DNA of 64,000 bases. Origin: Haliclona indistincta. Its lineage: Eukaryota > Porifera > Demospongiae > Haplosclerida > Chalinidae. Location of the stretch: positions 5,752,737-5,816,736 of the forward strand of contig OZ024790.1 of NCBI GenBank assembly GCA_964017065.1, read 5' to 3'. The notes beneath the pieces are model-generated. The model did no database searches. It was not told the origin of the DNA and saw only the letters and a list, made by a program, of their open reading frames with translations. Shown one piece after another: positions 3,755 through 45,500 of this stretch. Positions within the stretch are counted from its first letter, which is position 1. The number at the start of each line of letters is the position of its first letter. The translations under genes and the position numbers were made by a program.

Positions 3755-5606
3755 CTAATTGTTCTTTTCTCTTCTTATTCTGGTCATAAAACGGATCATC
3801 TTTGGCTGTATCTGTACCTGATATGGACCATATTCGATCTGCTCACCATCGATTGCTATATAACCGGGAGGTGATAGAGGCTCCAATCGATATGCCTTGG
3901 TCTGTATTTTACGAGCTTTCTCCATTTTAAGATAGCTAGCTTCCTTGTAAGTGAGAACAGCATGGAGTAAATCTGATCTAGTGCAGTCTTCAGTGAAGTA
4001 AGTTATCAACATTTTGCCTGACCCAAATGGTAGACTAAGATCTCCTTGTCCATAAAATGGCCCCAATTCTGTGTGGAAAGTGGTGAACTGTTCTTCGATG
4101 CATTTCCAATTGGTGGGTACTGGATCAGAAAGAGATGGAAGGAGATCTGTGTTGATTTTTTGATTTGTTGATTTCGACTTTTCTTGAGTTACAAGCCTGT
4201 TTGAGGATGCCCCATGTATTGCCTCATCGTTTGCTGCTGTTGGCTTCATTTGTTCATCATCTTCTGGAAGATAGAAGAGTCTTCCATGATATAACTTTTT
4301 TTGAGCAAGAGACTTAATACTTCCAATCAGATATCTCCGTTCTCCCAAACTCCTGAGCCATTCTGTTCCAATCTCAATATCGCTAACCATGGCCCAGCTT
4401 GATGCAAGACTCATGTGAACTGTTCCATTGCTCATCTGTACAGTGGCAATATCAGAAGATGTTAATCCTCCTCTTATGATCGCAAAGGTTGCATTTGTGA
4501 TGTTCACCTCTTCTCTACAAACCAAATAATTGTGTATAAGGTCATTAACACCAACACTGTGTCTAGCTACCAGTCTGATTTGGCATGTAGTGCATGTACA
4601 CTGCGAGTTAACATGTACACCGAACATGCATGTGTAGTGTACATGTTAACTGTAGAAGTCACTTACAGTGCATAATAGAGAGTAGATGTTGCAAGACTAT
4701 TGCCTGATCCTGCAGGCACTACTCCAATAGGAGTTTTTATTGATTCTTGCCAGTCCACACGCTCCATCAGTCCGTTGACCACCTGTTAAATCAACATAAT
4801 ATTGATGATATGATCAAACACATTGTACCTCATACACTAGACCATCTCCTGACACAACAACGATACCATCAATTGAAGATAAATCAAATTTCTTCACCAC
4901 ATCATGAGCATGGTTACGATAGCCTATGCAAGAAGACTCAATTCAAAAAATTAGACTCTAGAGTTCTTTATACCTGTAACTATCACGGTAAGATTGATTT
5001 CTGCCATATTAAACAATGGCTGGACATGCTTTTTGAACAGATTTTCTGCTCTTCCTTTGCCTGACTTTGGGCATACAAACACCAGCAGATGATGTCGTAA
5101 AAATAACTTGGTATCACCTGCCGCGGCATTCGCATTATAGTTATTTACATAATGCAGTAGCTCTAACCTGCAGATTCAAAGATTTTATTAACTGCTTTGT
5201 TGCACTCTGATAAAACAGCATCTTTCCACTCCAGTGCGACGCGATGATTGTCGTCAAAGCTTTCCTCAGAGTCAAAATCAATGCCAATGCGAGTCAGTGA
5301 TCGGTCGCTACCGGTTCGTTTTTCGCATGAGTCGCTTAGAGTTTTTGCAGGCGAGTATTCATTTAATATCAAGTGACAGCCGGACTCATTTTTGTTAAGT
5401 GGTTCTGGAAGCACAGAGACTCCAATCAGATCTTCCAGCAATATTCTACGAGTTTCTCCCGGCTCCTTGTTGTCACAGATGCAAAGCTCATATTCCTTTA
5501 GAACTAAATCCTTTCGAAAAGATCCTTTCGAAACAGTAACCTGACAGCGCCTGATTCCAAGACTAGAACTCTCCAGCTCGATTGCAGACTGCTGCGGAGT
5601 CGCCAT
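3755..5606 (-). CDS. SPHK: Sphingosine kinase, copy 1
   Basis: Five exons (5168-5606, 4974-5117, 4829-4923, 4667-4782, 3755-4514) join in frame to 517 aa. An in-frame ATG at 5618 would add four residues, but copy 2 supports starting at MATPQQ. Residues 1-146 form an N-terminal PH-like lipid-kinase region. The catalytic core carries VFVCPKSGKGRAEN, the nucleotide loop SGDG (about 219-222) and PAGSGN (about 249-254). The C-terminal part has SDIEIGTEWLRSLGERRYL and the late acidic motif IAIDGEQIEYGPYQ, typical of sphingosine rather than ceramide kinases. The enzyme phosphorylates sphingosine to sphingosine-1-phosphate. It would be transcribed away from the SMC6 side. The region between core and C-terminus (about 340-400) is a low-conservation linker. 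Confidence 0.9.
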
Positions 5607-7731: not shown

Positions 7732-9593
7732 CTAATTGTTCTTTTCTCTTCTTATTCTGGTCATAAAACGGATCATCTTTGGCTGTATCTGTACCTGATA
7801 TGGACCATATTCGATCTGCTCACCATCGATTGCTATATAACCGGGAGGTGATAGAGGCTCCAATCGATATGCCTTGGTCTGTATTTTATGAACTTTCTCC
7901 ATTTTAAGATAGCCAGCTTCCTTGTAAGTGAGAACAGCATGGAGTAAATCTGATCTAGTGCAGTCTTCAGTGAAGTAAGTTATCAACATTTTGCCTGACC
8001 CAAATGGTAGACTAAGATCTCCTTGTCCATAAAATGGCCCCAATTCTGTGTGGAAAGTGGTGAACTGTTCTTCGATGCATTTCCAATTGGTGGGTACTGG
8101 ATCAGAAAGAGATGGAAGGAGATCTGTGTTGATTTTTTGATTTGTTGATTTCGACTTTTCTTGAGCTACAAGCCTGTTTGAGGATGCCCCGTGTATTCCC
8201 TCATCGTTTGCTGCTGCTGGCTTCATTTGTTCATCATCTTCTGGAAGATAGAAGAGTCTTCCATGATATAACTTTTTCTGAACAAGAGGCTTAATACTTC
8301 CAATCAGAAATCTCAGTTCTCCCAAACTCCTGAGCCATTCTGATCCAATATCAATATCGCTAACCATGGCCCAGCTTGATAAAAGACTCATGTGAACTGT
8401 TCTATTGCTCATCTGTACAGTGGCAATATCAGAAGATGTTAATCCTCCTCTTATGATCGCAAAGGTTGCATTTGTGATGTTCACCTCTTCTCTACAAACC
8501 AAATAATTTGTGTATTATAAGGTCATTAACACCAACACTGTGTCTAGCTACAAGTCTGATTTGGCATGTAGTGCATGTACACTGCGAGTTAACATGTACA
8601 CCGAACATGCATGTGTAGTGTACATGTTAACTGTAGAAGTCATTGATAATGACTTACAGTGCATAATGGAGAGTAGATGTTGCAAGACTATTGCCTGATC
8701 CTGCAGGCACTACTCCAATAGGAGTTTTTATTGATTCTTGCCAGTCCACACGCTCCATCAGTCCGTTGACCACCTGTTAAATCAACATAATATTGATGAT
8801 GTGATCAAACACATTGTACCTCATAGACTAGACCATCTCCTGACACAACAACGATACCATCAATTGAAGATAAATCAAATTTCTTCACCACATCACGAGC
8901 ATGGTTACGATAGCCTATGCAAGAAGACTCAATTCAAAAAATTAGACTCTAGAGTTCTTTATACCTGTAACTATCACGGTAAGATTGATTTCTGCCATAT
9001 CAAACAATGGCTGGACATGCTTTTTGAATAGTTTTTCTGCTCTTCCTTTGCCTGACTTTGGGCATACAAACACCAGCAGATGATGTCGTAAAAATAACTT
9101 AGTATCACCTGCGCAGCATTCGCATTATAGTTATTTGCATAATGCAGTAGCTCTAACCTGCAGATTCAAAGATTTTATTAACTGCTTTGTTGCACTCTGA
9201 TAAAACAGCATCTTTCCACTCCAGTGCGACGCGATGATTGTCGTCAAAGCTTTCCTCAGAGTCAAAATCAATGCCAATGCGAGTCAATGATCGGTCGCTA
9301 CCGGTTCGTTTTTCGCACGAGTCGCTTAGAGTTTTTGCAGGCGAGTATTCATTTAATATCAAGTGACAGCTGGACTCATTTTTGTTAAGTGGTTCTGGAA
9401 GCACAGAGACTCCAATCAGATCTTCCAACAATATTCTACGAGTTTCTCCCTCCTTGTTGTCACAGATACAAAGCTCATATTCCTTTAGAACTAAATCTTT
9501 TCGCAAAGATCCTTTCGAAACAGTAACCTGACAGCGTCTGATTCCAAGACTAGAACTCTCCAGCTCGATTGCAGACTGCTGCGGAGTCGCCAT
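7732..9593 (-). CDS. SPHK: Sphingosine kinase, copy 2
   Basis: The five exons (9158-9593, 8965-9108, 8820-8914, 8658-8773, 7732-8491) are the same as in copy 1 and join to 516 aa. One codon is missing after ICDNKE, and there are scattered substitutions (for example EIGTEW to DIGSEW and ERRYL to ELRFL). All catalytic signatures (SGKGRAEN, SGDG, PAGSGN, IDGEQ) are kept, so both copies look functional. The gene is head to head with SMC6, with only 113 bp between start codons. Which copy is older is not shown by the sequence, but this one keeps the intact gene neighbourhood. Confidence 0.9.
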
Positions 9594-18281: not shown

Positions 18282-21200
18282 TCAAATAGTTCCGTTCATG
18301 TTCAAGCGTTCAATGAAGTGTTTGGGGTTTGCAAAGAAGTCGCCGAGCTTTTTGGGACTAATACAGTTGTTTTCACCTCTTGCTGTTGTTAGTTCCAGCA
18401 GAAGTTGCTTCATGACACGATTGTTCTTCATTTGATAATACACTTCTACGTTGTTTTCTTTCATGCATATTTCTTGAATTGCTTCAAGAATCAGGCATAT
18501 TAACCCACCAACTGCTGGAGCTGCAAAAGACGTGCCACTTGACTGTGTCAAAGAATTGTTGAGGTTTGGACCAATGACATCTTCACCTAGTGCCAGACAA
18601 TCTAATTCTTTTCCGACAGATGAAAAACGACATCGATTGCCAAATCGATCATGAGCGCCAACAGATATTGTTGCTTGGTAACGAGCTGGATATGTGACAT
18701 TCTCCTTGTCGATTCCTCCAGAATTGCTGGCCGAACAGATCACGATAATCCCTTTCTGATCAAGAGCCTTGATTGCATCCTCCATGTGTGGCTTAGGTGA
18801 CTTAGTGCCACTGGATATGACTATCACATCACCATCATATTCCTCTACAAGTTGTTCTAATTCTTCTACCCAAGGCTCAGCATCAATATCGTCTGTTGCC
18901 TCTTTGTATGCCTTCCAAATTGCTAGTTGAGCACCAGGAGCTACCCCACGACATTTGACTGTTTTTCCATTGAGTTTGTCTTCGATTGGGTTGCCACATG
19001 CTATTCCTGAACAAAGAGTACCATGACCATCTTCATCATCACAAGGGGAGTTTATAAAGTCTAGCTCTTTTGAACCAAACGATCGAAGGCTCTCCTTGAT
19101 ACCAGTATCAAACATTAGGAGAGTGGTTCCTTTGCCAGTGTACTTGCGGATGCTTTCGTCATCAAGTTTCCAATAAGTGGCTGGATCTGGAACATCCACA
19201 ATCGCCTTTTTCAAATCGTAAGGTGTAATACTGTGACCGAAAACTCTGTCAATGGGCGGCTTTTTTAAATCTATAGAACATAGAAAACAAACTCCATCTA
19301 ATCATAATTAATAATTAATTGTGACAATAAATGAATCTGAACAAGAGTACATATCTATTGAACACTCAGAAGATTGTTAAGACGCATTCCAAGTCTAAGT
19401 GGCAGCAAGCTCTTTGCATGGGTGGTGGAATGAAACCAGGTTAGAGAGAGCTAAAATATCACGAGGAGGACATTTTGGAATATTCATGAGGGCATATTTG
19501 GCCTTACACGACTCGTTGTTTTGGCCATCACTATAGTACTTTCGTTTGCAGTTCCATACTTAGATCTGCTTTAGCCATCTTTGCATGTGTGTCCAAGTTG
19601 TAAACTTATTAGTACTCATAATCAAATAGCAGACCCCTCGATGATTTTTGGGGGGCCTGAGGCCTCCAGCCCTATTGGTTCCGCCGCCTATGTTTTGCAC
19701 CATTATCTCCTCTCATGTCAAGCAGTAAATGTAACAGTTGTGTACCTGCACATGGGTGAGGTGGATTAGCTACACTGCTGGTCTGTGCTGGAGTCACAGG
19801 TGGTAGATATGCTACACCGTCAGTTGGTAAAGACATATAAGATGCACTGCTAGACGTCAGTACAGCGAACTTCATTTATTAGAGAGTTTTAGTTACACGT
19901 TTATTTGCACTAACGGTAAACGTCTGGCAATGCTGACGTCACAAATTAGCACGTGATCCACCGTTAACCCCAGCCTCGCGTTCAATTTTCCCGTTTACAA
20001 CGGCTGGCACCTGGTTTTCCCGTATGGTTTTCAAAGACTTCTCGCTTCTCTCGTCAAGCTTTCCTGCACGTTAGTTATAAGCTACCTTAAAACCACTATT
20101 ATTAGCGACCACTAATTTTAGCATTTTTAGCGAGTGAGGCCATAAACGCTAAATTTAGCAAGCGCAATTTTAATGAGATTCATTCTGCATAGGCTGTGGT
20201 TTTGCAGTAATAATGACTGTTAACGAGCATGAATCTCATTATAATAGCAGCCAAACGATAAAATTAGTACACGCTAAATGTCTTCAATCGCAAAACGCTA
20301 AATTAAGTGGTCGCTAAAATTACTGGTTTTAAGGTAGTACAAAGGCACATGCTTTAGGTTTCTGTTTTTGTGTTTTACGTGTGCCTACAAAATACTGTGC
20401 GCGCTACAATGTTGTGTACGTACACGACTAGATTGCCTTCTTCGTGTGTACACAAATTACAAGATAAGCGATGACTATAAATTCCTCTCAGGCATGCTTT
20501 TACAGAGTGTGGACCCATTGACATTCACCAAACTATAGGGAGAGTGCTATACGCTACACTAGCCAATGCAAGCTCACAGAAACCTGGTTCTGAAACCTAG
20601 TGTGCACAGCTTATATTACATGCACATACCTGGCACAGAGCGGTGACTATCTGCTGCTTGAGATTTAGTGTCATTAGAAATAGATGAGCTACCTGTAGCA
20701 GGAGAAAATAGTGTAACTCCTTGCATCATTAATTTTGCTGTACCAGTTATAAAGTATACGATGAACTAGTGAGTGCTAAGCACATACCTAGCCAGAGCAT
20801 GTGGCTGGAATCCAGTTTACAGCTCTCTCCTATCTCCTTCTCCTCGCATTCCAGAATCCCTGAGAGAGGGTTGTAGGCACAGGTGTGGTGAGCGCTGCCC
20901 TTGCCACACGAGCATAGAAAGGAGTCCACCTTGGTGATGGCACCTTGAATGATGTGGAGCTTTTCTTCAGTCAACTTTATCGACTTCAGAACAAGATCTC
21001 GGATAGTCATGCAATCTTGTGAAAGTTGCTTGAAACCAGAAAAATAGATTTCTAGTTGAAGATGTCGCTCGATCAAGTACACATCTCCTAAACGCTTGTA
21101 TCGCAATGTAATTAGATTCCGATATTGTCGTTTGCACCGATCTGTTGAAAAATGTGATGAGAACTCCGTGAGAAGGAAGACTACTATAGCAGGTAGATAA

Positions 21201-24131
21201 CCCACTGGGATTGGAATGGCAATCTCTTTATCATTTCGTTGCAGTCTGATCACCCACGGGGGAGATGATTCAGACACACTTGGTTCAGGAGCATAAGAAA
21301 GAGCACAAGGCATGAAATACTCTTTGTCAGTTGCGACATGTAAAATTATCTTGACATGCTCCAGGATATCTAGAAAGAATGACAGCGTGATATGCTTATT
21401 CAACTTAACATCACACTTCTTCAATGTGTCTACACTAAAGCGTCCATGAAATTGCAACAGTTCCTTGGCTCCATTAGGTAGCACAATGTCATAGTGGTCA
21501 AAAAGGAACAATTCTTCTAGAAACGATGCACTAATCAATCGAGAGAGCTTGCAGAGCACTGGTTTGGTGTCAATGATGACAGAATCTCTGAGCTTTGGAG
21601 TATCAAAATACATGATCAGGCTAATATCGTGAAAGAACTGGATGGCTTGCTTTGTCTCTGATTGGCCCATACCCAAAGTGTTGCCAAGCTTATAGCACTG
21701 ATCTAGTGTAAGTACAGCTTTTTTTTCTTTCTCAGCTATCATGAGTATGTTGAGAAGAAGCCCAAACCTCCGTAGATTCATTTTGACTTTCAAGCTGACA
21801 TCTGCCTTTTTAAAGAGTAGTCTAAGCCTCTTAGCTAACTTTGCTCTCTCCTCTATGACCACAGCATCTACGACCTCGGTGTCATCAGCTTTTTTGCCCA
21901 AAGCAGCATTGACAGGCAGAATGACCTTCTTACCCAGCTGTACTCGAAATGGCTCATATGGTTTAAGGACTTGCTTGAGAATCGATTCTTTTTCTTCAAT
22001 AGTTTCATCTCTGCATTCATGAGCCTTGTCTTCAAATGTGCCCACTATAGTGAATTTAGCTCCCTTTGGATAATTTGTTGCTGACGGTGTGTGTGGCGGC
22101 TGAATAGAAGCTACTGACTTGGCCAGTGTCTCGATTATCTGCTTGTGTGTCAAAGGGACACAGTCTTCATCAAAAGAAGCACGCTCATTTTTTACAAAAT
22201 AAGTCAAATCTGGTGTTTTGTCCAAACGCTCGTTCAATTTGACAGGAAAGATTTGAAGGCAGCTGTTGCGATGAAAGAGAGCAGCTGCATCTAGAAATGG
22301 TGGTTGGCCGCCACAATCAGTGACCATCATCCAGTGCGAGTCAAAGATTACTCCTGACTTTTCTGTGTTAGAAAGCTCCTTGAGCAGGTCAGGAAACACA
22401 GAAGAGGTAGGTTCATCAAGTGGCGCTGTAGTAGAGTTGTTTGTTTGAGAAAGCAGTTGATCATCTTCTGTGTCACTGGTAGATTGGTCGGTTGTTATTA
22501 CTGTCGTGCCTATTCGTTCTTTTTCGATAGCCTCCTTCATTGCTTTGCACAACAGTTCAAACATCTTGTCTCTAGTGACATGCTCCCACTCGACTCCTTC
22601 TTTTGCACTGTCAATCATCAAGTAGCGAGAGGGTGGATCAATACAGTCTGTACTAGTTCTCGTGGGAGCAGGAACTTTCCCCGTAGCGAGATCAAGAACA
22701 GATGTCTTGCCAACACCAGGATAGCCCCGAGTACCAACATTGGTGATTTCCATCTTAACAATAGCTCCCATTGAGGCCTTGGCAACATCCGGGTCTATGT
22801 CATCTGGGTCTATCTCTACAAATTAATGAGACAAAACTATAAAATTGCACATATCATGCATCATACCATATAGCATGAAATTTTCTCGGGAGAAAATTTT
22901 GTGAATGCGCGAGATAGAGCATTTCGCGAATAATATTTTCGCGAATTAGCTCTATTGTCCTATCTTTGTCGATAAAAACAAGACATTCGCGGATAACATT
23001 TTCGCGAATAGCCTGTAATTCGCGAAATTCGCAAAAATTTCCCGCTATACAGTATACCTTTGGGTATGTGTATTAGATAAAACAGAATTATACTATTGCA
23101 GTCAAACCAGCGAGATTGTGTATACAAAATTCAAACATGGCGTAAAACACGAAGAATGTATAGCACTGTGTGTGTATGATACCAACATAAGACGCATTCC
23201 AAGTCTAAGTGGCAGCAAGCTCTTTTTGCATGGGTGGTGGAAAGAAACCAGGTTAGAGAGAGCTAAAATATCACGACGAGGACATTTTTGAACATTTTGG
23301 AATATTCATGAGGGCATATTTGGCCTTACACGACTTGTTGTTTTGGCCATCACTAGTACTTTCGTTTGCAGTTCCATACTTAGATCTGCTTTAGCCATCT
23401 TTGCATGTGTGTCCAAGTTGTGAACTTATTAGTACTCATAATTAAAATAGCAGACCCTTCAATGATCTTTGGGGGGCCTGAAGCCTCCAGCCCTATTGGT
23501 TCCACCGCCTATATAGCAGTTGTGTACTTACCTACACTTGGGTGAGGTGGATTAGCTACACTGCTGGTCAGTACTGGAGTCACAGGTTGTAGATATGCTA
23601 TACCTGACATAAAAGATGGACTGCTAGACGTCACAGGTGGCAGACCACTACTTGGACCTGCAATGACAGTAATATTAGTCACACTCTCCTGAAATTTTTC
23701 TATATTATAATGCCAATAGTTGCAATCTTGAGCGACTTACAACCCACCTGGTGAAGTACAAGCCTTTCTGATGGATTTGGCGAGGGTTCGATCTAGACCT
23801 GCATCTTTAACACACCGTTCAAGTTCACCCAAAGTAGATGTGTCTCGACTAACCCATTCTCTCAAGACTTTGTATACAAAGTCATCATCATCACTGGCTC
23901 TGTTTTCACATTTTCTCACTAATTGGTCGTTATTAAGAAGGACGTATGCAAAGTCGACACATTGATAATGCTTATGTGAGGTTATGTGCTCGACTATCTT
24001 GTGACCATTGAGATTTACCAGCTGAGCGTATGTGGGCTTGGTGGCTACAGAGAAAAAGATTTCACAAGTCACGACACAGACTAGCAATTCAGATACTCAC
24101 ATAATGTTACAGGCCAGCTGGATCTCGACAT
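18282..24131 (-). CDS. Death domain - Roc-COR GTPase - S8 subtilisin-like peptidase fusion
   Basis: Seven exons (24101-24131, 23748-24044, 23532-23657, 20788-22815, 20630-20719, 19746-19811, 18282-19270) join in one frame to 1208 aa, and all six introns are phase 1. Residues about 20-108 look like a Death domain (FAYVLLNNDQLVRKC, VLREWVSRDTSTLGELER). The 2-kb exon is a Roc-COR GTPase: P-loop GYPGVGKTS (182-190), G3-type DCGGQPPF (from 318), a degenerate G4 (GTFEDKA) and a COR-like tail. After Ser/Thr/Pro-rich linkers, residues about 880-1208 form an S8 peptidase with Asp934 (MFDTGI), His962 (DGHGT), Asn1062 (ASNSGG) and Ser1127 (SSGTSFAAP), so the catalytic triad is complete. There is no signal peptide, so a cytosolic role is expected. 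I infer GTP-controlled, Death-mediated assembly activating a protease. The exact start of exon 6 is uncertain. Two adjacent genes, Death-Roc-COR and S8, remain an alternative. Confidence 0.75.
19379..19875. repeat. Intragenic duplication, copy A (pairs with 23185-23657)
   Basis: The intron segment at 19379-19690 and the adjoining linker exon are repeated at 23185-23657 with high similarity. The copies share GACGCATTCCAAGTCTAAG and the exon-coded residues TSSVANPPHP. Both copies sit in the same gene and orientation. They explain why exons 3 and 6 encode similar Pro/Ser-rich linkers. Confidence 0.8.
20082..20337. mobile_element. MITE in intron 5 of the Death-Roc-COR gene
   Basis: Termini CTACCTTAAAACCACTATTA and, reversed, CTACCTTAAAACCAGTAATT extend into a roughly 40-bp inverted repeat containing GCGACCACT. 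The element is 256 bp, AT-rich and non-coding. Confidence 0.75.
22865..23055. mobile_element. MITE in intron 3 of the Death-Roc-COR gene
   Basis: A 190-bp segment rich in TTCGCGAAT-type palindromes. Its ends, CCATATAGCATGAAATTTTC and reversed CTGTATAGCGGGAAATTTTT, are imperfect inverted repeats. There is no coding potential. Confidence 0.6.
23185..23657. repeat. Intragenic duplication, copy B (with linker exon 3)
   Basis: Counterpart of 19379-19875. It contains the intron block with GGGGGGCCTGAAGCCTCCAG and the 126-nt linker exon (23532-23657), which encodes PSSGLPPVTSSSPSFM and the shared TSSVANPPHP. Confidence 0.8.
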
Positions 24132-30901: not shown

Positions 30902-33163
30902 ATGCCTGACAACTGCATCGTTTGTGGACTGACAAAAGAACAGAATCCTGAAATATCTTTGTTCCGCATTCCCAAAAACACACAAATCCGAAATGCCTGG
31001 CTCAAGGGACTATGTTTGATACCTCAAGACATTAAAAATGTATCCCGTGTTTGCTCTTTACATTTTCGAGATGGCAACTCCAAAAATATTCCTTCTGCTT
31101 GCTTGGGGAAACGTTTTTGTCAGCTTCCTTCTAAGTGTACTCCAAGAGGCAAGCGTCAAACATCACGTGATTTACGTAAGCAGTTAGACTCTCTGTCAAG
31201 TACTAACCCATCAGAGCCTTATCATTCCTCCTCCTCACTCTTACCACCAAATACAGTTGCAGGTTCTTCCAACTCTCACTCACCACCAGATACCGAACAA
31301 CCTGGTGTAGATACTTCCAACTCTCACTCACCACCAGATACCGAACAACCTGGTGTACATACTTCCAACTCTCACTCACCACCAGATACCGAACAACCTG
31401 GTGTACATACTTCCAACTCTCACTCACCACCAGATACCGAACAACCTGGTGTACACACTTCCAACTCTCACTCACCATCAGATACCGAACAACCTGGTGT
31501 ACATACTTCCAACTCTCACTCACCACCAGATACCGAACAACCTGATGTACATACTTCCAACTCTCACTCACCATCAGATACCGAACAACCTGGTGTACAT
31601 ACTTCCAACTCTCACTCACCACCAGATACCGAACAACCTGATGTACATACTTCCAACTCTCACTCACCACCAGATACCGAACAACCTGGTGTAGATACTT
31701 CCAACTCTCACTCACCACCAGATACCGAACAACCTGGTGTAGATACTTCCAACTCTCACTCACCACCAGATACCGAACAACCTGGTGTAGATACTTCTAG
31801 CGTCTCTGTTTCACTACTAAGTGCTGAACCTTCAATCGCAGGTTCTTCCAGCTTCCCATTACCACCAGACACAGGCTCTAGCTCAACAGTGCTCACACCA
31901 GCCAGTCTTTCTTTCTATTCTTTACCAGGACCATCCCGATCAACTTATTACGCAGACACTGATTCTAGCTTCACAATGAGTGAGAATGAATCTGCTTGTA
32001 GTTCATATTTTGGCTGTGATACACCACATTCGTTGCAGTCACAGCCTTTATCTCCAATGGATTTTCAAGTTAGTGTAAATGTAGCTTTGATTTCTCAGAT
32101 AGAGATGCTTAAAGCCGATAATAAAAAACTAAAGCAACAACTGGCAGAGGCAAAACAAGCACCATTTAGACTGGAGTGTATTGCTACAAGTGATTCTCTC
32201 ATATCACTTTATACTGGTTTTTCTTCTTATGAAGTTCTACTGACCTTCTTTAAGTTTCTAGGCCCTGCTGTAAATAACCTGCAATACTGGGGTACAAAGC
32301 CTAAAACCCGAGTGAGACGGCGAATGAAGCTAAATCCATTGAATCAACTATTCATGACTCTAGTGAAGCTCAGGTTAGATTTAAACACACGAGACCTAGC
32401 AGTTCGATTTCAGATCTCGAAGAGTACAATATCACGTTACTTCATTACCTGGGTGTGTTTTTTGTATCATGAGCTTAAAGAAATTCCATGGTTTCCCTCA
32501 AAGGAGCAAGTTGCTGGTACACTTCCATATGCATTCAGAGAACGGTATCCTACCACAATCGCAATAATTGATGCTAGCGAGATATTCGTAGAGACACCAT
32601 CTGATCTAATGCTTCAATCTACAGCTTGGAGTAACTATAAGCATCATAACACTTTTAAGTTTCTAGTTGCTTGTACACCCAATGGTGCCATATCCTTTAT
32701 CTCTTCTCTCTATCTTGGCTCTGTGTCAGATCCAATGCTAACTCAAGAATGTGGCTTTATAAAGAAACTTGACAACATGTCTGGTGTAGCAGTCATGGCA
32801 GACAGAGGATTCACTATTAAAGAAACTCTGAGTAAAATAGGTGTTGATCTAAATCTACCACCTTTCATGGAAGGACGTGGCCAACTACCAGTAGACGAAA
32901 TGCAGCGTGGTCGTTCAATTGCAGCTCTTAGAATACATGTAGAAAGGGCTATTGGGCGGATTAAACAACACAAAATCCTCACAGGTGTTTTCCCCTTGAA
33001 AATGGCCAGGATTGCTAATCAGATAGTGACCATTTGTGCTTATTTATCAAACTTTCATCCTGCTCTAGTTCCTGTCCCTACTACCCCCTCAGAGTCTGAA
33101 GATGGAATGAGTGAAACCAGTGAGATCAAGAGAGAATTATCAGACAGTGATGACTCAGAATAG
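30902..33163 (+). CDS. THAP-domain DDE transposase (ISL2EU)
   Basis: A single 753-aa open frame. Residues 1-90 form a THAP C2CH zinc finger (CIVCGL, ending CSLHFRDG). A Ser/Pro-rich segment contains eleven 16-residue repeats, followed by a short coiled coil (MLKADNKKLKQQLAEAKQ). A helix-turn-helix follows (DLAVRFQISKSTISRYF), then a DDE_Tnp_4-type catalytic core with IIDASEI, VMADRGF and HVERAIGRIK, which supply the D, D and E. It would bind the element's ends and catalyse its excision and integration. No stop codons or frameshifts are seen. Confidence 0.9.
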   Translation: MPDNCIVCGLTKEQNPEISLFRIPKNTQIRNAWLKGLCLIPQDIKNVSRVCSLHFRDGNSKNIPSACLGKRFCQLPSKCTPRGKRQTSRDLRKQLDSLSSTNPSEPYHSSSSLLPPNTVAGSSNSHSPPDTEQPGVDTSNSHSPPDTEQPGVHTSNSHSPPDTEQPGVHTSNSHSPPDTEQPGVHTSNSHSPSDTEQPGVHTSNSHSPPDTEQPDVHTSNSHSPSDTEQPGVHTSNSHSPPDTEQPDVHTSNSHSPPDTEQPGVDTSNSHSPPDTEQPGVDTSNSHSPPDTEQPGVDTSSVSVSLLSAEPSIAGSSSFPLPPDTGSSSTVLTPASLSFYSLPGPSRSTYYADTDSSFTMSENESACSSYFGCDTPHSLQSQPLSPMDFQVSVNVALISQIEMLKADNKKLKQQLAEAKQAPFRLECIATSDSLISLYTGFSSYEVLLTFFKFLGPAVNNLQYWGTKPKTRVRRRMKLNPLNQLFMTLVKLRLDLNTRDLAVRFQISKSTISRYFITWVCFLYHELKEIPWFPSKEQVAGTLPYAFRERYPTTIAIIDASEIFVETPSDLMLQSTAWSNYKHHNTFKFLVACTPNGAISFISSLYLGSVSDPMLTQECGFIKKLDNMSGVAVMADRGFTIKETLSKIGVDLNLPPFMEGRGQLPVDEMQRGRSIAALRIHVERAIGRIKQHKILTGVFPLKMARIANQIVTICAYLSNFHPALVPVPTTPSESEDGMSETSEIKRELSDSDDSE
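31268..31795. repeat. 48-bp minisatellite, eleven units, within the transposase ORF
   Basis: In-frame units encode SNSHSPPDTEQPGVHT with small variations (P/S, G/D and H/D). Because 48 is a multiple of three, the opposite strand and another forward frame are also open across the array, which creates spurious ORFs. Confidence 0.95.
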
Positions 33164-33228: not shown

Positions 33229-35170
33229 TTATTCATGGCGAAGATCTCTGATAGGTAGACCAAAAGGATGCTGAGGAGAGACTATTTCTGGTCCAATGCA
33301 TAGGTCATAAAAGCTGCACAGTTTCGGTAATAGATCATTATCCCAGAAATCTTGATCAAACCCTAAACGTTCCACATTTATGCCTTTCTTAGTGTACACA
33401 ATAAAATCACACCATTTGCGTCTGCCAATAGCCATCTGGCCCTGAACTTGGGAAAAGTACATGTGTGTTCTCTTGAGGATCAAATTACCATTTTGCTCTC
33501 GAAGCATGAAGTCAGAGTTTTTTGCAGCTTCAGCAGGTGTCATATTTTGATACTTGTAGGAGCACTTAATCTCAGCAAATCTGAATGGCTCTGATGTACA
33601 TGATGGATCATACACATTAGCATCTGGTGACGCTCCAAGAAAAGGGTGAGTATGAGAAATGTGTACACCTGAGGAAGTAGCATACAGGTCACAGTGGCCA
33701 TTATCATGTTGGTACTTGACGTATTCATCTAGTGCAGTCTTCTCCATTGTTCTTCCATAATCCAATTGAGGCCCCCAAATTTTTTTAACACCCAAGATGG
33801 ACAAAACCAAGCTGTCAGGGGCAGTTGATGATTTCAAACGTCTCACACGACCAAAATATGATGAAGTAAGGCGAAATTTTCGTGCTTCAAACCATGATTG
33901 TGAGTTAGATTGCTCTCTTGTGCTTTCTTCTATACTTCTAATTTCTTGATCAGAAACAACAAGCTTTTCTTTGAATGATTCCACCTTTTTAAGAAGCTCC
34001 GTCTTGGCTAGCACTAGCCCTTGTCTTTCTGCTGTCTCAACACAAACTGATGGATCCAGTAACAACGAAACACATATGCCCTTCCCTTTCAAATCTGTCA
34101 ACAACTGAGGTATTCTTTCACCCACTGTGCCTCGCATTTCAGGTGGACGGGGATCATAGTTGTCAAGAGCTTCTATGTTGTATTTCTTTGGTTTACCATA
34201 CTCGTGCTTCTTAAACTCTGCAACTGACACCTCCATTGATGCCGCCTTGCGCTTTTTCGGCTGTTTCCACTGACAAGGTAGTGAAGTGACAGGAGCATTT
34301 TCGTCATCACTATCCTCTTCTCCAGATAAACAGTTTGACGTTGCAGGCTTCAGTGCTACCAGGGCATGAAGCAATGCAGACACATGTACACAGCTAGCAG
34401 ATAACCTGCAATATCAAGACTGTAATCACGAATTAAGTGTATTATACAAACTTACCCTGCAGCACAATCACATGAAGCTTGTTCAATCTTGCCGATGACA
34501 CTGTCTAAGACACTCTGTTTCTTAAGCATAACCTTAACTGTATAGGTCCCAGAACGCATAGATGGTATCATTGTACAACGGACGAATGCATAATTAGGAT
34601 TGCGTGTTTGTATTTCAATCTTCTTCACACGACCAGAAGCCCAGTGTATATACCCGCGTTTTAAAGAACGAAAAGACAATGAACCCTTGGCGTTTCCCAC
34701 CCCTTCAGCAAGGTAAGTGTACATCGTTGACTGTGTGATTATTGGCATCTCCTTTGTCACCTCTTCAGAACTTTTCTCGTCCACAGTCAGCCACCCAGTC
34801 AGAGGAAATGCAGGTCTAGGTAGTGATGCAACTCGTACATTTGACGATAAAAGCTTCTGGCGCTTTCGCTCCAAGTACGTGCCATCGATATCTAGTACAC
34901 TAGCCTTATCAATTTTTGACTGCCTCACCCTGAAACATAGACAAATAATACACATACTCATGCACTGCAGTACTTATTTACTTACCTCTCAATCAAACCA
35001 GGCTTCTTTAAGCTGGAAGGAGCCTCTCTCCCGTGACACACAAGCCACCAGCGTAGTTGTGGGATTGTCTTGGCTTCCAAGGGTTCCTCCAAAGTAGCTC
35101 CTTCAATATCTCCGTCTTCCAGATTCACAGCAACTGCATCCTGAGAGCAGCTTGCACTAGTAGTGGCCAT
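33229..35170 (-). CDS. SAP - SWIM - YqaJ nuclease of the ISL2EU transposon
   Basis: Three exons (34986-35170, 34456-34929, 33229-34405) join to 611 aa starting MATTSASC. Starting at 35278 would add 36 residues from the terminal repeat. Near the N-terminus is a SAP-like helix pair (TIPQLRWWLVCHGREAPSSL). The exon 2/3 junction completes a SWIM zinc finger, CDCAAGLSASCVH. The C-terminal half is a YqaJ-type exonuclease fold of the PD-(D/E)XK class, with SWFEARKFRLTSS, GRTMEKTALDEY, GASPDANV, AEIKCSY and QVQGQMAIG. YqaJ proteins resemble phage lambda exonuclease and may process DNA ends during transposition. Confidence 0.85.
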
Positions 35171-42587: not shown

Positions 42588-45500
42588 ATTTAGTACAAAG
42601 ATTTGTTGCCTAAGCCGCCCTACTCGCCATACTTTCTTTTTACGAATTCAAAGTTGCCTAAATTCAGAGCAAAACATCCCGAGCTATCACAGACTGAAAT
42701 TGCTGTAAAGCTTGGTCAAAAATGGAAAGCCCTCGAACCAGAACAACAGAAGAGATATCAAGCAAGATATGTGGAACTCAAAGAGGAGTACTTGAAGGAT
42801 ATGGTGAGATTTTATGAAGAACACCCAGATGCTAAACTGCTGGCTGATTCACCCAAGTGAGTGTTGTTAGTACATTGTATGTATAGAGGTAGCGATGTGG
42901 TTAATACACTTTGTATGGTAAAAAAGAGATTGATGGGAGCTTTTCAGGACTGCAAATTTATCTTAAAAGCCAAATCACAGTTGTGCAAAAATCTTTAAAA
43001 TTCTATCAAGAGGTCCTTTTATTGTGGTTAGGCCTGGGTTTGCAGAATACTTTCTAAAATAATATTTGTACTGAGGATGGGCTTCCCAAGAGTATAGCCT
43101 TTTAGCGAGCTTCCAACTAACACCCCGTTCACACTATAGATCGATCCAGGGTTATTCGACTCGGTTCGAATTCAGTTCGATCTGTGGCTGCGTTCACACT
43201 CAAATCGCTATCAGCGCCAGTACATTGAAAAGTGGGTGTGTATAAGAGGTGTGACAGTGGGCGTAACGTAAAAATGGCGTGTCGAAGAGAACACCGTGTA
43301 ATGTTTGCCCAATATCTGATTATGCAGTCGCGTAGACGACTAGAAGGCCATAGAAGAAGATGTATTGAGATGAGAAAAAGAATTTCAAAGAGGAAAATGA
43401 TGCTTCTAGTTGCTATAATGACTGCTCTGAGCTTGTTTGGAAGTGAGATGTTTGCTATCTCTCCAAGGAGTGTTTGGACGTACCCAAGATCTTCTCGTTG
43501 GTGGGAAGACATTGTGTTGAATTCCTTTAGCCACTATGACTGGATGGAAAATTTTAGGATGAGTAAAGCAACATTTACATATCTTTGCGACCAACTGAGG
43601 CCAATCATTAAGAAAAAGAATACTCGAATGAGAAGGCCCATAGCAGTTGAACACAGGGTAGCCATCACACTCTGGGTTTTGGCAACAACATCTGAGTACA
43701 GAAGCATTGCCCATCTTTTTGGAATAGCCAGAAATACAGTCTGCGTAATTGTTCACGAAACATGCTTGGCAATTGTAAAGAAGCTCCTCCCATTGTATGT
43801 GCAGTTTCCAACTGGAGATGGCTTGAAACATGTCATAGATGGCTTCCAAGAGAAGTGGGCGCTTCCTCAATGTGGTGGTTCTATAAACGGCTCTCACATT
43901 TCGATAACTCCTCCGAAGATGAATCACACTGACTATTACAACCGCAAAGGATTTTATTCTATGTTGGTTCAAGCGGTGGTAGATCATGACTACTTATTTA
44001 GAAATCTTTGCATTGGATGGCCGGGAAGCGTTCATGACGCTCGAGTATTTGCTAATTCGTCATTACATACAAAGGTCATGAATGGTGAGCTACTTCAAGG
44101 TGATCACATTAATGTAAATGGCCAGAAACTACTACCATATTTAGTTGGAGATTCAGCATATCCCCTCTTACCATGGTTGATAAAGCCCTTTTCCTTTACT
44201 ACTGCTCTAACCAATCAGGAAAAGGAATTTAACTATAGGATTTCGCGTGGACGAGTAGTAGTGGAAATTGCATTTTGACGACTAAAGGGCCGTTGGCGCA
44301 GGTTGTGTAAACAGATTGATATGAACATCGACCAATGTACCATACATCATAGCAGCTTGCTGTGTGTTACATAACATTTGTGAAATACACCAAGACCACT
44401 TCAACGAGGAATGGCTCCAGGAAACTCCACCCAACACTGATACTAGTACTACTCCTCCTAACGCATCAGCACAGAGCTTATCTCATGATGAAGGAGAGGA
44501 AGTATGTAAACTACTTATGCAGTACTTTCAGTTAAATCCAATTTGAACTAAAGTGCAGCTTTGATTATACATGTATATACATTGTACTCGCACATTTTGG
44601 GTTTTTTGTTTGTTCATGCTAAACTATTCATCTTGAGAATTTGGTTGTGAGTAGAAGTGATGATAGTTTGGAGGGCAGGGAGGGTAATACTGCTGTTGAT
44701 TTGCCGACCCATTGAACAATTGTGCTAGTTGCAGCTGAAACTGTCGCTCTTCCCTTTTTTGTTGAGCATCAATCTCCATCCTCTTCTCCTCCAGTTTGAA
44801 GTACATTTTGTCACTTTCTCTTTGCATTTCTGTTACTATCTTCATCGTCTTGGTCATTACTCCTTCAAACACATCAGCCTTAGCTAACGCACGTTTTGTT
44901 CCTTTGCTAATCGGTGGTTTTGTCGGTGTTTTTGTGTTACTACCTTCAACTGCGTCCTTGGGCTGTTTGCTTACAGTTCCGCTATCAGAACTATCACCAT
45001 CGTTACCTCCTTCTGACTGTTCTTCATCCTCATCTGACAATCGAGAAATCTCTGACTCGGCTTCTGTGGTGGGACTATCTTCTGAAGTACTGTCGATAAC
45101 TAGAGGTGGTCTGGTGGCTGGTCTGGGTCCCAGAACTTCATCCAGAGCATCATAATATTTCCACTTTGTCCTGCCCCTTCCAGTATTCCCATTCTTATCT
45201 TTAATTTTTTATAATCTTGCCGAAGTTTCTTCATCTTGGACCTACATTGCTCTCCGGTCTTGTTTATCCCTGCCTTGTTTAGACCAGCAGCTATCTTGCA
45301 GTAAACATGTTTATTTATCGTTCTAATTGCGTCTGTATTCCGTCTTCTTTCCATATATCGATTAGTTTAAAGACCTCAGCGTCGCTCCATGCAGCTCCCA
45401 TGACTCGTCAAGTCCACCACGTGTGCATATGCCACGCCCTTTCGTTTCAACACAATTCGAAAAGCGTTCACACGAGCACATCGGATCGCTCTGATTCGCA

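Follow-up and report, generated by a model that had tools for sequence, protein, structure and literature searches.

Does the minus strand between positions 24131 and 18282 of a 64,000-nt stretch of Haliclona indistincta DNA (the window; C8:5752737-5816736) encode one protein that combines a Death-like domain, a Roc-COR GTPase and a subtilisin (S8) peptidase, or do two neighboring genes lie there? A preliminary description had proposed the former, with seven exons and a product of 1,208 aa. This locus was analyzed together with its relatives in the genome of the sponge (144 Mb, 46 contigs). We assign a probability of roughly 0.6 to the reading that it encodes one intracellular Death-like-Roc-COR-S8 protein, belonging to a ROCO receptor family that gained a built-in subtilisin through phase-1 exon shuffling.

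Gene model of the locus

Six exons on the minus strand (24131 to 18282) join into a single open frame of 1,177 aa, along which a Death-like domain, a Roc-COR GTPase and an S8 peptidase follow each other. All five introns of this predicted join have GT-AG borders and lie in phase 1 (Table 1). The coordinates, domain order, P-loop and catalytic residues given in the preliminary description were all recovered, as was its phase 1 at every intron. Its exon count was not: six of the seven exons were reproduced. A 93-nt piece ending at the donor of the duplicated segment at 19859-19378, the obvious site for the seventh, was rejected because its start is not preceded by AG. The start of exon 1, which lacks homology support, is the least certain part of the model. 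When exon 5 is left out, the join stays open at 1,156 aa. At the level of sequence, the observation of one predicted fused protein is thus confirmed, and a single transcript probably spans all six exons.

Table 1 Predicted features of the locus, in window coordinates
Feature	Position	Strand	Remarks
Exon 1: ATG and MSRSSWPVTL, phase 1	24101..24131	-	Donor GTGAGT; ATG in frame, A at -3
Exon 2: Death-like domain	23748..24044	-	Pfam Death 20.3 bits on exon, cut-off 22.6
Exon 3: linker rich in Ser/Pro	23532..23657	-	GT-AG, phase 1
Exon 4: Roc-COR GTPase, single 2,028-nt exon	20788..22815	-	P-loop GYPGVGKTS; COR-A below cut-off
Exon 5: short linker rich in Ser, possibly optional	20630..20692	-	GT-AG, phase 1
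Exon 6: S8 (subtilisin) peptidase and stop, stop ending at 18282	18282..19270	-	PF00082, 97.4 bits
Recent duplicate of 23188-23633 (exon 3 and start of intron 3), within intron 5	19378..19859	-	Sequence comparison
Possible optional 66-nt phase-1 exon in the duplicate	19811-19746	-	Join open, 1,199 aa
Rival first exon: ATG 19875 to phase-1 donor	19746..19875	-	Open when joined to S8 exon
Inverted repeats, MITE-like, within intron 5	20082..20337	.	Sequence comparison

Elsewhere in the window, two near-identical ORFs about 4 kb apart on the minus strand (3755-4645 and 7732-8514) form a tandem duplicate. An IAIDGE motif, as found in sphingosine kinases, is present, and the ORFs have no Pfam match at an E value of ≤0.001. 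Further ORFs encode a THAP and DDE_Tnp_4 transposase with an internal repeat (30902-33163), a YqaJ-like exonuclease (33229-34413) and a second DDE_Tnp_4 protein (43229-44278).

Domain assignments

A Pfam scan of the 1,177-aa join bore out the peptidase assignment, with PF00082 scoring 97.4 bits (cut-off, 21.8). The other assignments fared less well: COR-A (25.3 bits; cut-off, 35.3) and Death (15.0 bits on the join, and below the cut-off on the exon as well) remained under their thresholds, and Roc was absent from the listing. LRR, kinase, NACHT and NB-ARC domains were not found in the same scan.

The S8 exon of the window was aligned with 33 relatives picked from 114 matches. Counting from the first whole codon of the exon, the catalytic residues are D54, H82, N182 and S247; these are conserved in 33 (with one gap), 34, 34 and 34 of the 34 sequences, respectively. 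We read exon 6 as an S8 domain with a complete D/H/N/S set and as a putative protease. Methionine first occurs at residue 52, two residues before the catalytic D54, so the exon cannot start on its own. The nearest solved chain is 7y6m, an intracellular serine protease, and Pfam lists no S8 pro-domain on the join, which together suggest that the window protein is intracellular. Before the S8 core, the window sequence ITPYDLKK aligns with LIPYEVK of 7y6m. According to the accessible part of one report, LIPY/F segments inhibit intracellular subtilisins and follow the pattern [LVI]-[IFLV]-P-[YFH] (PMC6220982). An ISP-like LIPY/F pro-peptide was rejected, since the window's ITPY has no I, F, L or V at position 2 and fails the strict pattern; self-inhibition by this segment is therefore only a lead. 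The PY pair is also present at this place in P0131-P0133, P0135, P0137, P0139 and P0146 (19 sequences read).

Proteins 61 to 77% identical to the window S8 exon occur in other records (P0131-P0133). No Roc-COR linked to these three was seen among the 120 listed of 143 Roc-COR matches, which is a weak comparison. COR was likewise found in none of nine matches to longer proteins with a window-type S8 domain; these records look like unspliced ORFs and hence cannot show a spliced fusion.

As COR-A and Death scored below their cut-offs and Roc was absent from the Pfam listing, the structure of the Roc-COR exon was modeled. The alignment used comprised 40 sequences (the window and 39 picked from the 120 listed of 143 protein matches), in which the P-loop residues G30, P32, G35, K36, T37 and S38 are invariant. 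The resulting AlphaFold2 model has a mean pLDDT of 68.5 and a pTM of 0.68, and is weak around the P-loop. When it was compared to the PDB with Foldseek, all nine matches at an E value of ≤1e-3 were Roco proteins (CtRoco, LRRK1, LRRK2 and MbRoco2), the best being 6hlu (E value, 4e-10), although the query-normalized TM-scores are low (0.29 to 0.49). Small GTPases rank after the Roco proteins. Sequence and model together indicate that exon 4 encodes a ROCO module, with a P-loop-bearing Roc domain directly followed by COR and the usual LRRs absent.

The Death-like exon has 75 match rows in the genome, itself included. Among 13 aligned exons (the window, nine near relatives and three more distant ones), PF00531 is detected in five at an E value of ≤0.01. 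A single-sequence AlphaFold2 model folds into six helices (mean pLDDT, 61). In a PDB fold search with this model, no match reached an E value of ≤0.001 (best, 2.7); the Death domains of RAIDD, DR3 and FADD are in the top seven rows, which are not significant. Because its PF00531 score stays below the cut-off, we call exon 2 Death-like.

One gene or two at the locus

The open six-exon frame has to be weighed against a pair of neighboring genes. In that case, a Death-Roc-COR gene would terminate with the COR exon (read-through stop, 20749-20747), and S8 would belong to a gene of its own, the first exon of which starts at ATG 19875 and is spliced at 19746 to the S8 exon. The S8 frame from this ATG is open and has a phase-1 donor that fits, the 100 nt or so upstream of the ATG contain TGACGTCA and CACGTG motifs, and some S8 exons elsewhere in the genome stand without Roc-COR. 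However, the proposed first exon consists mostly of the recent duplicate, its ATG lying just outside. Compared to the original (23633-23188), the duplicate (19859-19378) has 9 mismatches in 102 positions of the exon part and 13 in 331 of the intron part, gaps aside. This divergence of about 4 to 9% contrasts with the ≥22% by which the nearest S8 relatives of the window differ in protein, so the S8 exon probably needed another upstream exon earlier. In addition, the copied exon-3 piece appears free of coding constraint (3, 5 and 1 mismatches at codon positions 1, 2 and 3), ATG 19875 has a T at -3, and seven other Roc-COR/S8 units in the genome have compatible exon phases. We consider two separate genes unlikely and proceed with the single fused gene.

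Recurrence of Roc-COR/S8 units in the genome

The S8 exon yielded 23 match rows in its own genome, 14 of them close loci (≥35% identity, window included). Same-strand Roc-COR exons are located about 0.55 to 3.8 kb upstream of eight of these 14 S8 exons, namely in the window (C8), at L015 (C6:12.04 Mb) and L011 (C7:0.234 Mb), and in a tandem cluster on C9 (L014, L016, L018, L019 and L020). A Death or Death-like exon is also part of seven of the eight units. On C9, all five genes have a Death exon above the Pfam cut-off (26.3 to 38.1 bits) before Roc-COR; at L015, a Death-like exon below the cut-off (21.5 bits) sits between COR and S8; at L011, none was found. In the C9 genes, another exon located before Death was taken by eye for Death-like and then dismissed, as Pfam Death matched it in none of the five. 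In related copies, this exon has weak tblastn similarity to the Death-like exon of L015 (E values of 4.5e-4 and 0.002).

No Roc-COR was found at the other six close S8 loci (L010, L012, L013, L017, L021 and L022); for the first three, about 7 kb was read upstream. At L017 (C3:12.68 Mb, with L049), S8 is preceded by a Death exon below the cut-off (18.9 bits) and a Pro-rich exon with a long SSELPPxTP repeat. L021 and L022 carry S8 within one ORF of 731 or 734 aa with a different N terminus, and for L021 Pfam lists S8 alone. Single ORFs of 668 to 734 aa with S8 are found in L021, L022 and P0121-P0125. A further S8 copy (L023/L030) is broken.

The exon borders of these units are compatible with splicing in phase 1. 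In all 12 S8 exons examined, L009 to L020 (a set without L021 and L022), the peptidase is preceded by one or more phase-1 acceptors with a pyrimidine tract, and each of the eight COR exons upstream of S8 has a phase-1 GT donor. Further GT and AG sites exist around these borders, and phase alone is no proof of fusion because the family uses phase 1 throughout. Assuming an even spread of 430 candidates, the chance of a same-strand Roc-COR within 2 kb upstream of a random S8 exon is about 0.003. For four of an assumed 11 independent lineages, this gives about 3e-8, a rough guide that ignores the clustering of such genes. We rejected the idea that the fusion is a gene-model artifact, which its recurrence at eight loci makes unlikely. 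The open six-exon join and the repeated architecture uphold the earlier view that, in one predicted chain, a protease is attached to a Roc-COR switch.

The S8 domain could still be an optional C terminus of one alternatively spliced gene, with most of the protein being Death-Roc-COR without a protease. An in-frame stop lies 41 nt beyond the end of the COR exon, and both exon 5 and the copied exon-3 piece are symmetric and could be skipped. Set against this, no stop interrupts the S8 frame at any of the 14 close loci, and we regard a mostly protease-free product as improbable, somewhat more so than two genes.

The Roc-COR family is much larger than the S8 set, with at least 109 match rows (66 of 430 candidates were scored), which implies that S8 is one of several partners. 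A coordinate proximity scan over 66 Roc-COR, 43 caspase, 75 Death and 14 S8 places, with second-fragment rows dropped, recovered two of the eight Roc-COR/S8 units, since the divergent Roc-COR exons fall outside the 66 scored. Another shuffled ROCO was observed at L053 (C5:364300-372300), where one ORF combines a Death-like exon, a RING finger and Roc-COR and is followed by a Death domain above the cut-off.

Exon shuffling and selection

The S8 exon of L015 is 60 to 67% identical to those of the C9 cluster and 42% identical to that of the window. Its Roc-COR exon shows the opposite affinity, with 61% identity to the window and 34 to 36% to C9. Trees agree with these values, as L015 groups with C9 for S8 and with the window type for Roc-COR. 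Alternative placements of its S8 with the window group (p-AU, 4e-88) or a wider group (7e-39) were rejected, as was placement of its Roc-COR with C9 (p-AU, 4.5e-4); the groups were picked after the identities had been seen, and three C9 Roc-COR rows are partial. The conflict between the trees indicates that the parts were shuffled. With 26% identity to that of the window, the Roc-COR of L011 is of a third type, so that S8 is carried by three divergent Roc-COR types. Together with the conflicting trees, this argues for more than one union or exchange of S8 and Roc-COR. The uniform phase 1, which the preliminary description had taken as the mark of exon shuffling, is therefore joined by recurrence at eight loci and by the tree conflict, and we retain this explanation.

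Within the C9 cluster, dN/dS of the S8 exons ranges from 1.37 to 3.14 over the 10 pairs among five genes, with a bootstrap p of <0.05 in eight. These pairs are not independent, as they have genes in common, and the values take no account of gene conversion. For the C-terminal half of Roc-COR (four genes), dN/dS is 0.83 to 1.62, with p<0.05 in one of six pairs, and for full Roc-COR it is 0.87 (L016-L020 pair). One pair each gave 0.60 for the Pfam-supported Death exon and 1.36 for the exon beside it. The older S8 pairs L014-L015 and L010-L012 have values of 0.46 and 0.60. Among the C9 S8 domains, D, H, N and S are invariant and 146 of 321 gap-free columns vary. The C9 comparisons show fast evolution of the protease in this sister cluster. 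Variable positions of the tandem S8 domains at C9:7.69-7.75 Mb include part of the strand with the IPSG/IPRG motif, which lines the substrate cleft of subtilisins.

These values also bear on a chance fusion that is decaying or unexpressed and has no function. The family is large and shuffled and includes the broken copy L023/L030, as such decay would predict. Yet the catalytic and P-loop residues are intact, the 1,177-aa frame is open, the architecture is repeated, and the C9 sisters combine dN/dS above 1 with conserved catalytic residues. A functionless fusion is thus very improbable.

Proposed function

With a single fused protein as the preferred reading, members of this family most likely act inside the cell as ROCO receptors for immunity or self-recognition that carry a protease of their own. 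Roc-COR modules dimerize, according to the accessible part of one report (PMC6337361). In the mechanism that we propose, the Death-like part would bind partners of its own kind, and the Roc-COR GTPase would control dimer formation. Clustering or GTP turnover may then bring the S8 domains together and free them, upon which they could cut themselves and subsequently a target protein in immune or self-recognition signaling. In this scheme, it is conjectural that clustering activates the protease, and so are its substrate and the outcome.

The preliminary description had suggested a self-contained, caspase-independent signaling or cell-death module. That the module is self-contained or causes cell death is conjectural, and independence from caspases is not supported: there are 45 caspase match rows in the genome, some of them no more than 5 kb from exons of the window's Death-like family (three rows with Death first, three with caspase first). 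At C2:3860871-3862453 and C2:2317297-2321457, caspase exons lie 0.2 to 0.7 kb from window-type Death-like exons. A search for gasdermin (PF04598) gave no match, but its control likewise matched nowhere, which leaves this negative without weight.

More speculatively, these genes might represent an animal receptor class in which a ROCO GTPase carries its own executioner protease, akin to inflammasome and caspase in one chain, built repeatedly by exon shuffling and with the protease in an arms race with a changing target or inhibitor. We hold this wider view tentatively and think it may well prove wrong. If the fusion is borne out, the switch and the scissors of an immune-type response would reside in a single chain, and the fast-evolving C9 S8 exons point to a definable conflict partner. 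ROCO GTPases have been studied chiefly through LRRK2, whose switch is difficult to disentangle from its kinase. With a protease as its output, a ROCO protein would offer an independent test of how Roc-COR dimerization gates an enzyme.

Comparison with known systems

Several components of this architecture are known already. DAPK1-type animal ROCOs hold Roc-COR and Death in one chain without LRR, as described in the accessible part of PMC6337361. In DAPK1, a kinase precedes Roc-COR and Death is C-terminal, whereas in the window no kinase is listed by Pfam, the Death-like domain comes first and S8 last. A peptidase of another type, the trypsin-like IPR009003 (PA clan), is also found on ROCOs. 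It forms the C-terminal peptidase domain of brown algal ROCO "group 3" in the portion consulted of PMC11378527. This amends the earlier premise that ROCO proteins usually end in a kinase or lack an effector. The algal and the window proteins both have a C-terminal peptidase, but the algal ones have no Death domain, unlike the window protein with its S8 and Death-like parts.

The same source reports Trichoplax ROCOs with Death or CARD (PMC11378527), and Amphimedon proteins carry one to three Death-like domains with variable C termini, including caspase (PMC8195603). In the portions consulted of these two papers, the Death-bearing receptors of placozoans and sponges do not include a Roc-COR-S8 combination, and the word "subtilisin" is absent from the text of PMC8195603. 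Within our partial literature survey, Death domains and C-terminal peptidases on ROCO proteins, as well as S8 on NLRs of fungi, are thus on record, while a Roc-COR/S8 fusion is not named in the titles and abstract openings covered.

For the peptidase itself, bacterial ISPs provide the nearest solved structure, from whose published LIPY/F pattern the window's ITPY departs. Fungal NLRs have a NACHT or NB-ARC switch, and their S8 domain is N-terminal. Peptidase S8 is listed among the effector domains of these receptors (PMC4986451), and the subtilisin-like HET-Q2 is tied to gasdermin cleavage and cell death (PMC12881547), as far as the accessible parts of these reports describe. In the fungal systems, S8 is thus placed on an NLR or forms a separate protein, HET-Q2, whereas in the window it is predicted at the C terminus of a ROCO GTPase. 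If this prediction is true, subtilisin would be a further protease coupled to Death-type adaptors in animals, in parallel to the fungal S8 systems.
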